A stretch of DNA of 64,000 bases, from contig CP144143.1 of assembly GCA_028485475.2 (NCBI GenBank), positions 868,001 to 932,000 of the forward strand, read 5' to 3'. Every line of letters starts with the position of its first letter. Position 1 is the first letter of the stretch. Made by a program: the position numbers and the translations under genes. Positions 61,615 to 63,965 of this stretch are shown piece by piece. This DNA is from Chitinophagaceae bacterium C216 (lineage in GTDB: Bacteria > Bacteroidota > Bacteroidia > Chitinophagales > Chitinophagaceae). The notes beneath the pieces are model-generated. The model had not been told where the DNA came from. It searched no databases and saw nothing but the letters and a program-made list of their open reading frames with translations.

Positions 61615-61736
61615 AAATACACGAATTTAACTTTTCAAATTAACGATATTTTTTTCCATTAGGTATATATTTGGCAATAGTTAATATATTCGAAAAAGCA
61701 TACAAAATCAATTTATCAATATTTACATTTTACTTC

Positions 61737-63191
61737 ATGCAGGAAAGAGTAAACCACATTAAAGATTTATATAGCAAAACTTACCATAAAGAACCCCGAA
61801 ACATTGATATATTGCCTCAGGCGGGTAGCGAGCGCCGTTATTTCCGAATTTGGAGTGATGCAAATGATTCCGTTATCGGTACCTACGGAGCTAATATCCC
61901 GGAGAATGAGACATTTTTTTATTTCTCCGAGCACTTTCAGAAAAAGCATCTACCCGTAGCCAATATTTATGCGGTAAGTGAAGACAGACAATACTATTTG
62001 CAAGAGGATTTCGGAGATGTTTCTTTAATCAGTCGTCTCGAATCTGAAGGATATACACCAGAAGTATATAATTTGTTCAAACGCAGCCTAGAGGAACTCG
62101 CACGGTTACAGGTGACGGGAGATCAGGGACTGGATTATAATAAATGCCTTACTAATAAGGAATTTGGCAAACAGGCTATTATGGCCGATTTGCTATATTT
62201 TAAATATTATTTTCTGGATGCATTGCGCAAGCCTTATGATAAACAGAAGTTGATCGACGATTTTGAAGCGCTGAGTAATTATCTCACACATACCGATCAT
62301 AAATTTTTTATGTTTCGGGATTTTCAAAGTCGCAATATTCAGGTGATGCCTGATAATTCTGTGCATTTCATAGATTATCAAGGAGGCATGAAAGGTGCAC
62401 CTCAGTACGATGTAGCATCTTTGCTGTGGCAGGCACGTGCCGCATTACCCGAAGATTGGAAGCATAATCTGCTGCAGGACTATATGAATGCGCTTGAGCC
62501 CTTATTAAACAAGCCTTTGAATAAGCTTACCTTCGTAAGTCAGTACTATGGTTATGTATTAATAAGATTGCTGCAGGTATTAGGGGCTTATGGTTTCAGA
62601 GGACTTTTTGAAAGAAAAGCCCATTTCCTTACCAGCATTCCTCTGGCATTAAAGAATTTAAAAGCTTTTTTGCAAACCTATCCTATGAGTATTGCATTGC
62701 TGGAGTTTGAAAAAGTATTGCAGATATGTGTGGATGATGAGATTATCCAGCAGTTTACTCCGGTACAAGCTACACACGAAACACCCTTGGTGGTGAAGGT
62801 TTGCAGCTTTTCTTATAAAAAAGGATTACCTGTAAAAGATGAAGAAAATGGCGGAGGATTTGTATTTGACTGCCGCGGTATATTAAACCCCGGTCGCATT
62901 GAAAGCATGAAAAAACTCACAGGTCGTGATAAAGAAGTGATACAGTTTTTGGAGCAGCAGACCAAAATGCCGGAGTTCTTACATAGTGTGTTTGATGTAG
63001 TGGATATTACTGTAGAGGATTTTATAAAACGTGGATTTACTAGTCTACATGTAAGTTTTGGATGTACTGGTGGACAACACCGCAGTGTATATGCCGCCGA
63101 TGCGCTAGTACGTCATCTTCGCAACAAGTTTAAAGTAAAAGTACAATTGAATCATTACGTACAGGAAGAGAAAAACTGGATTAACGAATAA
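61737..63191 (+). CDS. Aminosugar kinase-like (APH/AmgK-type) domain fused to RapZ C-terminal domain
   Basis: 484 residues from the ATG at 61737 (MQERVNHIKD). Residues about 20-330 are an aminoglycoside-phosphotransferase-type kinase: 'AGSERRYFRI' resembles the nucleotide loop, catalytic Asp195 is in 'FRDFQSRNI', and metal Asp213 is in 'FIDYQGG'. The usual HxD reads RxD. Residues about 360-480 match the RapZ C-terminal domain, with GCTGGQHRSVY at 442-452 and 'FDCRGILNPG'. In E. coli that domain binds GlcN6P. With the nucleotidyltransferase 24 bases downstream, this resembles the AmgK-MurU cell-wall sugar recycling pair. The function is inferred. Confidence 0.88.
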   Translation: MQERVNHIKDLYSKTYHKEPRNIDILPQAGSERRYFRIWSDANDSVIGTYGANIPENETFFYFSEHFQKKHLPVANIYAVSEDRQYYLQEDFGDVSLISRLESEGYTPEVYNLFKRSLEELARLQVTGDQGLDYNKCLTNKEFGKQAIMADLLYFKYYFLDALRKPYDKQKLIDDFEALSNYLTHTDHKFFMFRDFQSRNIQVMPDNSVHFIDYQGGMKGAPQYDVASLLWQARAALPEDWKHNLLQDYMNALEPLLNKPLNKLTFVSQYYGYVLIRLLQVLGAYGFRGLFERKAHFLTSIPLALKNLKAFLQTYPMSIALLEFEKVLQICVDDEIIQQFTPVQATHETPLVVKVCSFSYKKGLPVKDEENGGGFVFDCRGILNPGRIESMKKLTGRDKEVIQFLEQQTKMPEFLHSVFDVVDITVEDFIKRGFTSLHVSFGCTGGQHRSVYAADALVRHLRNKFKVKVQLNHYVQEEKNWINE

Positions 63192-63215
63192 GGTGTAGAG
63201 GCATAAGCAATAGTT

Positions 63216-63965
63216 ATGACAAATATTTCTTCAACTTTTGGAGTATCTCAGGCAATGATATTTTGTGCAGGGCTGGGCACTCGCTTTAAACCCTGGACGG
63301 ATCAACATCCGAAAGCCCTTGCTATTATTAATGGTAAATCCTTGTTGCAACGTAATGTGGAGTATTTGCTGCAATATGGTATTAAGGATATTATTGTTAA
63401 TGTACATCATTTTGCCGATCAGATAGAGGCTGCGGTAAAACAATACAACGGTTGGGGGGCTAATATTGTGATTAGTGATGAGCGGTCCGAAGTACTCGAA
63501 ACTGGAGGCGGATTACTTCATGCTAAGCATTTATTTCGACGGGGAGAGAGGTTTATAACCTGCAACGCCGATATTTTGACGGACTTGAAAATGGATCAAT
63601 TGCTGACATTTCATGAGCAGCAGGCCCCATTGATATCTTTTGCGATAAGCGATAGAAAGACATCGCGAAACCTGTTGTTCGACGAGAATAATATTTTATG
63701 CGGATGGCGTAATAATAGTACCGGAGAAGAAAGAATTGCGGTTTCGGGTAAACAATTATTCCCTAAAGCCTATGACTGTGTGGCCGTTTTTGAATACGGG
63801 GTGTTTGATCATATTCGTTTTACAGGAAAATTTTCGTTGATTGATTTATACTTGGATTTAGCACCCCATCATAAAATTATGGGCTTTGAGCATCATGATG
63901 ATCGTTGGATTGATGTGGGAAAGCCGGAGAGTGTGCCTATTGCGGAAAGTATGTTTAACGAATGA
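63216..63965 (+). CDS. Nucleotidyltransferase, MurU-like
   Basis: 249 residues. The sugar-nucleotide transferase signature 'FCAGLGTRFKPWTDQHPKALAIINGKSLL' lies near residues 16-44, followed by 'ETGGGLLHAKHLF' and 'FITCNADILTDL', the metal-binding Asp region. Size and motifs fit MurNAc-alpha-1-phosphate uridylyltransferase MurU and related short nucleotidyltransferases. The start could also be the ATG at 63255. It follows the kinase-RapZ gene after 24 bases, probably in one operon. Confidence 0.88.
   Translation: MTNISSTFGVSQAMIFCAGLGTRFKPWTDQHPKALAIINGKSLLQRNVEYLLQYGIKDIIVNVHHFADQIEAAVKQYNGWGANIVISDERSEVLETGGGLLHAKHLFRRGERFITCNADILTDLKMDQLLTFHEQQAPLISFAISDRKTSRNLLFDENNILCGWRNNSTGEERIAVSGKQLFPKAYDCVAVFEYGVFDHIRFTGKFSLIDLYLDLAPHHKIMGFEHHDDRWIDVGKPESVPIAESMFNE

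Follow-up and report, generated by a model that had tools for sequence, protein, structure and literature searches.

A putative peptidoglycan-sugar salvage cassette of Bacteroidota with an AmgK-type kinase fused to the RapZ C-terminal domain

Introduction

Near the end of a stretch of 64,000 nucleotides from Chitinophagaceae bacterium C216 (contig CP144143.1, positions 868,001 to 932,000; the whole stretch is called here the window and coordinates are counted from its first letter) lies a gene in which an APH/AmgK-type kinase and the C-terminal domain of RapZ (RapZ-C) are joined in one chain, followed by a gene for a MurU-like nucleotidyltransferase. The architecture, its conservation, the co-occurrence of its parts and their gene order are matters of direct observation. 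It is proposed, with a probability of roughly 50%, that the kinase and the MurU-like enzyme are a salvage pair making uridine diphosphate N-acetylmuramic acid (UDP-MurNAc) and that RapZ-C binds an amino-sugar phosphate and tunes the kinase in cis.

According to this proposal the kinase would phosphorylate C1 of N-acetylmuramic acid (MurNAc), perhaps also of N-acetylglucosamine (GlcNAc), and the MurU-like enzyme would turn MurNAc 1-phosphate into UDP-MurNAc, so that MurA and MurB would be bypassed. The fused RapZ-C would bind a phospho-sugar and influence the kinase in cis, probably by sensing an amino-sugar phosphate allosterically, be it glucosamine 6-phosphate (GlcN6P) or something closely related; it might in addition dimerise the kinase. 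In this way salvage flux would keep pace with the de novo synthesis of hexosamines, and the fusion would not be an RNase adaptor. The features of the locus are as follows.

61737..63191, plus strand: fusion protein, APH/AmgK-type kinase and RapZ C-terminal domain, 484 residues from the ATG
61737..62740, plus strand: kinase module, operational cut at about residues 1-335 (Pfam APH at residues 55-250)
62313..62336, plus strand: kinase catalytic loop F193-R194-D195-F-Q-S-R199-N200
62373..62375, plus strand: kinase Asp213 (IDYQ), invariant in 107/107
62790..63155, plus strand: RapZ C-terminal domain PF22740, residues 352-473
62847..62858, plus strand: glycine-rich insertion N371-G-G-G374 of the Bacteroidota RapZ-C
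62886..62897, plus strand: N384-P-G-R387 of RapZ-C, with G386 aligned to H190 of the E. coli ligand pocket
63060..63092, plus strand: pocket loop GCTGGQHRSVY, residues 442-452, with C443-x5-R449-S450
63192..63215, no strand: gap of 24 bases between the fusion gene and the MurU-like gene
63216..63965, plus strand: MurU-like sugar-1-phosphate nucleotidyltransferase, 249 residues

Domain architecture of the fusion protein

Both domains are recognised by Pfam above their cut-offs: APH (PF01636) at residues 55-250 with 38.0 bits (cut-off 23.2) and the RapZ C-terminal domain (PF22740) at residues 352-473 with 112.8 bits and E=1.5e-32 (cut-off 27). A first-pass annotation, made from the letters alone, had read an APH-type kinase followed by RapZ-C in the same chain, looked for the RapZ match at residues 360-480 and placed the motif GCTGGQHRSVY at residues 442-452; these readings were borne out, the motif to the residue. 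The NCBIfam profile of RapZ gave 104.4 bits (cut-off 244). Among PDB sequences searched with phmmer, E. coli RapZ 5o5s was aligned to residues 349-478 (E=4.5e-15) and the APH-like protein 3csv to residues 22-308 (E=4.6e-6). The structure predicted for the fusion, as the annotation had suggested, agrees with its two-domain reading: an AlphaFold model built from 57 sequences (the window and 56 of the 69 fused rows; mean predicted local distance difference test, pLDDT, 89.6; predicted template modelling score 0.74) matched 3csv with E=2.6e-13 and RapZ 8b0j with E=2.3e-8 in Foldseek. RapZ-C modelled alone from 57 of 70 domain rows (pLDDT 88.9) matched the RapZ fold with E 2.1e-9, and each of the 17 PDB chains found at E<=0.001 was a RapZ.

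A single scan of named genomes found homologous loci in 78 places, mostly from Chitinophagaceae and unclassified Bacteroidota and several from Niabella, so the joining of kinase and RapZ-C is not a matter of chance. The longest open frame of the fusion gene in the window reaches back to a TTG at 61671 and comprises 506 residues. In three Niabella assemblies (L073, L075, L077) the fusion gene is broken up between reading frames, by sequencing error or decay.

Distribution and splitting in Bacteroidota

The survey comprised 395 genomes drawn evenly from Bacteroidota and representing 171 genera. RapZ-C was found in 48 of these genomes and 36 of the genera, and the P-loop N-terminal domain of RapZ (PF03668) had no match in any of the 395 or in the genome of the window itself. 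The cassette-type kinase (at least 256 bits) occurred in 49 genomes, all 48 RapZ-C genomes among them (Fisher p=3e-61, relatedness ignored); the one without RapZ-C is G009. Weaker kinase matches only, of 91-146 bits and without RapZ-C, were noticed in 81 further genomes, all of the family labelled f18.

Of the 48 copies of RapZ-C, most belong to frames of about 476-524 residues and 12 to frames of 134-169. Separate kinase, RapZ-C and MurU genes in this order are found in Weeksella (L079), in seven genomes of family f4 and in G031; in G271, G306, G180 and G327 the kinase and RapZ-C stand at different places and both are retained, with one stop codon within the kinase match of G180. A tree of 57 kinases separates the RapZ-C-linked clade, G009 included, from four f18 kinases (100/100) and requires several changes between the fused and solo states, with bootstrap not settled and the base unresolved. 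From this tree it is claimed only that the fused and separate states have changed more than once. Of all the evidence, the persistence of RapZ-C in spite of such separation argues most strongly that the domain works with the kinase.

The solitary RapZ-C genes L110 3944-4441 and L112 4083-4493 adjoin a gene of an MFS transporter, the kinase being elsewhere in those genomes, and the kinase of G271 stands between genes of an M1 peptidase and an alpha/beta hydrolase. The genes flanking solitary RapZ-C (MFS transporter, secreted endonuclease) gave no functional lead in Pfam and NCBIfam. Outside this phylum, RapZ-C without the N-domain is present on two Streptomyces plasmids, a few genes from a MobF relaxase: as a solitary gene of 132 residues (L159 3995-4393) and fused to a NUDIX domain (L160 3983-4864). 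RapZ-C thus seems to be a portable module.

The kinase

AmgK is the best named kinase for the fusion, with 49.6 and 33 bits against its two NCBIfam profiles (cut-offs 550 and 500). R194, D195, R199 and N200 of the catalytic loop, together with D213, are invariant in all 107 aligned kinases. Conservation counts here and below omit L001, L002, L057, L064, L066, L071, L073, L075, L076, L077 and L099, which are own copies, partial or frameshifted copies and duplicates; rows that are nearly identical, L078 and L080 among them, were retained. The catalytic Asp, the Asn and the metal Asp expected of AmgK as an APH-fold enzyme are present as D195, N200 and D213, next to the match with 3csv; Asp213 is presumably the metal-binding position, by analogy with APH.

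The HxD motif had been read in the first-pass annotation as RxD. This needs correction: the residues are F193-R194-D195, so that the His is the one replaced and the Arg is the middle residue. At position 193 the aligned kinases carry Phe (71), Tyr (24), Ile (7) or Met (5) and never His, and loss of the His is, judged from this alignment, clade-wide. Other kinases tolerate aromatic replacements of the HxD His. Because Asp195, Arg199, Asn200 and Asp213 are invariant, kinase chemistry is probably intact with FRD in place of HRD.

The MurU-like gene and its neighbourhood

The short nucleotidyltransferase announced by the first-pass annotation 24 bases downstream was located at 63216-63965, and MurU proved its best name. 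The NCBIfam profiles of MurU gave 118.3 and 108.4 bits (cut-offs 250 and 370), and the best family other than MurU gave 66 bits. The nucleotidyltransferase signature G-x-G-T-R...P...PK is present, with A18, G19, G21, R23, P26, T28, P32 and K33 conserved in 101/101 sequences and T22 in 93/101.

A survey of gene neighbours, also suggested by that annotation, supports the pairing: of 100 fused loci, 89 have MurU as the immediate downstream gene in the same orientation, and so do 15 of 19 loci with a standalone or broken arrangement. This tally omits 19 narrow-flank duplicates, own copies and the non-cassette loci L122, L123 and L133, and ten loci without a RapZ-C match were tallied separately. 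When the neighbours of 120 loci were clustered, nine of which had been fetched for kinases without linked RapZ-C, MurU was present in 103 and the runner-up cluster in 36, with none of the latter in the divergent set. No wider conserved operon was found, as beyond the cassette no neighbour cluster occurred in more than 36 of the 120 loci.

The fusion with an adjacent nucleotidyltransferase gene is also carried by Parabacteroides distasonis and Bacteroides finegoldii records labelled as plasmids. In both (L157 6981-8411 and L158 6981-8411) the annotated name of the fusion is “RNase adapter RapZ” (WP_005858754.1 and WP_237923178.1), a misleading name which implies an RNA circuit that is probably absent. 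The genes ruvC and gdhA near the Parabacteroides fusion look chromosomal although the record is labelled a plasmid.

Pathway context and substrate

MurQ, the MurNAc 6-phosphate etherase, is under-represented in RapZ-C genomes, being found in 20 of 48 as against 259 of the 347 others (p=1e-5, relatedness ignored). AnmK is not enriched (30 of 48 versus 241 of 347, p=0.33). For the 48 genomes, absence of AnmK or MurQ means absence from the list of matches. In family f17 nine genomes have RapZ-C and none of them appears among the MurQ or AnmK matches, whereas the 15 f17 genomes with a listed MurQ match all lack RapZ-C; the comparison covers the f17 genomes that have RapZ-C or a listed MurQ. The genome of the window itself has matches to AnmK, MurQ, NamZ and GlmS. 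Its best match to TIGR01449 (phosphoglycolate phosphatase) scored 30.3 bits, which is no test for MupP, 1 of 14 control genomes being above the cut-off. Simple replacement of MurQ by the cassette was considered and rejected as more than a tendency, both being present in the genome of the window and in 10 of the 11 further family members that carry RapZ-C.

At all four inspected loci of the f18 cousins (L129-L132), kinase, MurU, NamZ (exo-N-acetylmuramidase) and an SSF transporter (sodium:solute symporter) stand in a row without RapZ-C; NamZ and the symporter were identified by Pfam in two of the loci and by BLAST similarity in the remaining two. The cousin kinases retain His-Arg-Asp, and this cluster is a candidate MurNAc scavenging locus. 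A fused cassette, L140, likewise has NamZ nearby, at a distance of about 3.4 kb. MurNAc is inferred as the substrate from the enzyme families and from this context, namely the f18 NamZ clusters, the NamZ of L140, the under-representation of MurQ and the f17 pattern. Tannerella, a member of Bacteroidota, is described in the excerpts available of PMC7670621 as using AmgK and MurU.

A kinase-nucleotidyltransferase pair for another sugar (for example heptose, GlcNAc/GalNAc or a choline-like substrate), with RapZ-C in the same pathway, would agree with scores under the equivalog cut-offs for both proteins, with the weak NCBIfam matches of HddC-type and other nucleotidyltransferases to the second gene and with the choline kinases among the Foldseek neighbours of the kinase. 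However, AmgK and MurU remain the best named families, MurQ is scarce in RapZ-C genomes and NamZ stands beside the cousin pair and near the L140 cassette, so that another substrate is judged quite unlikely. The context favours peptidoglycan-sugar salvage: MurU is adjacent, MurQ is less frequent and NamZ lies beside the cousin pair. The salvage unit of the first-pass annotation is upheld to this extent; its second part, direct regulation of the kinase by a GlcN6P-binding domain, is not established, the H190 position, for one, being Gly in all 111 aligned Bacteroidota RapZ-C.

The RapZ-C pocket and its possible role

Positions C247, T248, G249, H252 and R253 of E. coli RapZ are retained in all 111 aligned Bacteroidota RapZ-C, in which the loop GCTGGxHRSV is invariant with x alone variable; in the numbering of the fusion, C443, H448, R449, S450 and D378 are the same in all 111. 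In E. coli RapZ the mutants H190A, G249W, R253A, C247A and C247S are inactive, according to the excerpts available of PMC9841335. For comparison nine canonical RapZ were aligned without a motif filter, from E. coli, Paracoccus, Azospirillum (two), Sphingomonas, Nonomuraea, Latilactobacillus, Acetoanaerobium and Fusobacterium. All nine retain C-x5-R-S, that of Fusobacterium with Ser for Thr (GCSGGQHRS).

RapZ-C could serve for docking or dimerisation, linking the kinase with a partner such as MurU or a hexosamine enzyme, and sense no metabolite. Dimerisation of the E. coli domain by itself (PMC7073468, PMC5737377, both in excerpt) would suit such a role, as would its persistence as a separate gene, like a partner protein, in several lineages; a pure docking domain, however, has no need of a pocket loop that is invariant throughout, and this explanation is held to be unlikely.

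The spacing C-x5-R-[ST] is the loop motif of protein-tyrosine phosphatases (PTP). RapZ-C might accordingly be a cysteine-dependent sugar-phosphate phosphatase, which would dephosphorylate MurNAc 6-phosphate (in Pseudomonas the MupP step) and pass MurNAc to the kinase, giving three consecutive steps with MurU. The spacing is found in all the Bacteroidota and canonical sequences. The E. coli pocket binds sulfate or malonate through the backbone of T248 and G249 and through side chains including that of R253, C247S abolishes activity, a catalytic -SH has been suggested and density of a probably chemically transformed GlcN6P has been reported (PMC9841335, PMC5737377, excerpts of both); YvcJ has been described with NTPase and phosphatase activity (PMC7525490, excerpt), though the latter may reside in its N-domain. 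AnmK without MurQ was found in 15 of the 48 RapZ-C genomes, which counts for a phosphatase, but neither was found in 13 (MurK was not searched), leaving no obvious source or sink of MurNAc 6-phosphate, and the lack of AnmK enrichment also speaks against it. Foldseek gave RapZ-C no significant match to a phosphatase, whether PTP or low-molecular-weight PTP (LMW-PTP), the best of that kind being the rhodanese-family PTP 3f4a with E=0.65. A phosphatase is therefore considered improbable. A broader version makes RapZ-C an ancient and portable C-x5-R domain for phospho-sugars, with catalysis of its own. In Bacteroidota it would form one half of a bifunctional enzyme, a cysteine phosphatase or a converter of phospho-sugars, which would take the phosphate off an amino-sugar phosphate and hand the sugar on to the 1-kinase joined to it; the RNA-adaptor role known from E. 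coli would have arisen late. This version is rather more speculative and distinctly improbable.

A role as RNA adaptor was considered as well and is unlikely, as the first-pass annotation had held: the RapZ N-domain is absent from the 395 genomes and from that of the window, and of the seven basic residues with which E. coli RapZ contacts RNA, four (positions K194, R211, R238 and K251) are non-basic in this protein. The positions of K170, R184 and R196 are still basic, so the RNA-contact surface alone does not decide the matter.

Weighing of the proposed salvage cassette

Several findings weigh against the proposal that a salvage kinase is tuned by RapZ-C. The genome G009 keeps adjacent kinase and MurU genes without RapZ-C, which is therefore not strictly required. 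MurU does not follow immediately in the same orientation in 11 of the 100 fused loci: in three it is on the opposite strand, in five none was found despite room and three lie too near an end. The kinase and the MurU-like enzyme both fall far short of the equivalog thresholds that NCBIfam sets for AmgK and for MurU, and MurQ accompanies the cassette in the genome of the window and in most of the other RapZ-C genomes of that family, as said above. Regulation of the kinase and the identity of the ligand we only infer.

The pocket itself adds to these points. The position of E. coli H190 is Gly in 111/111 Bacteroidota RapZ-C, the next residue being Arg in 104 of them and Lys in 6, and a glycine-rich insertion is present which all nine canonical RapZ lack. 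Within the aligned sequences, the Gly and the NGGG insertion are peculiar to the Bacteroidota set, and NPGK and GNGGG are present in the Parabacteroides and Bacteroides fusions. H190 is weakened as a decisive marker, since the canonical proteins also vary there (His in six, Tyr in three, within NPH[WY] or NPYY). As the phosphate-binding loop is retained and the remaining pocket is different, GlcN6P is not simply transferable as ligand, and RapZ-C may bind another compound.

Comparison with known systems and significance

The fusion of this kinase with RapZ-C was not found described among the papers listed from the literature searched, which covers few subscription journals, and an APH + PapZ_C architecture may stand in domain databases; among papers listed as naming two of AmgK, MurU and RapZ, RapZ never appeared alongside AmgK or MurU. 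PTP and LMW-PTP are cysteine-based phosphatases with a CX5R[ST] loop, and RapZ-C resembles them in having C-x5-R-S between a strand and a helix; it differs in giving no significant structural match to them.

With RapZ/YvcJ, in E. coli an RNase adaptor and GlcN6P sensor, the domain shares the C-terminal fold and the pocket loop GC[TS]GGxHRS. In contrast to these proteins, the fusion has no P-loop N-domain, carries Gly at the H190 position and the glycine-rich insertion and has partly lost the RNA surface. The case bears on the role of RapZ-C outside enterobacteria, because the domain is here parted from its usual partner and tied phylum-wide to one enzyme family, and ligand binding and its effect on the enzyme are measurable in one purified protein.

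The AmgK-MurU salvage systems of Pseudomonas, Caulobacter and Tannerella are alike in their adjacent kinase and uridylyltransferase genes, in giving the best named profile matches and in the catalytic Asp and Asn, whereas the Bacteroidota cassette has a fused RapZ-C, a replaced HxD His and scores far below the equivalog level. By analogy with the Pseudomonas pathway, UDP-MurNAc salvage would be predicted in many Bacteroidota, with a possible route round inhibition of MurA.

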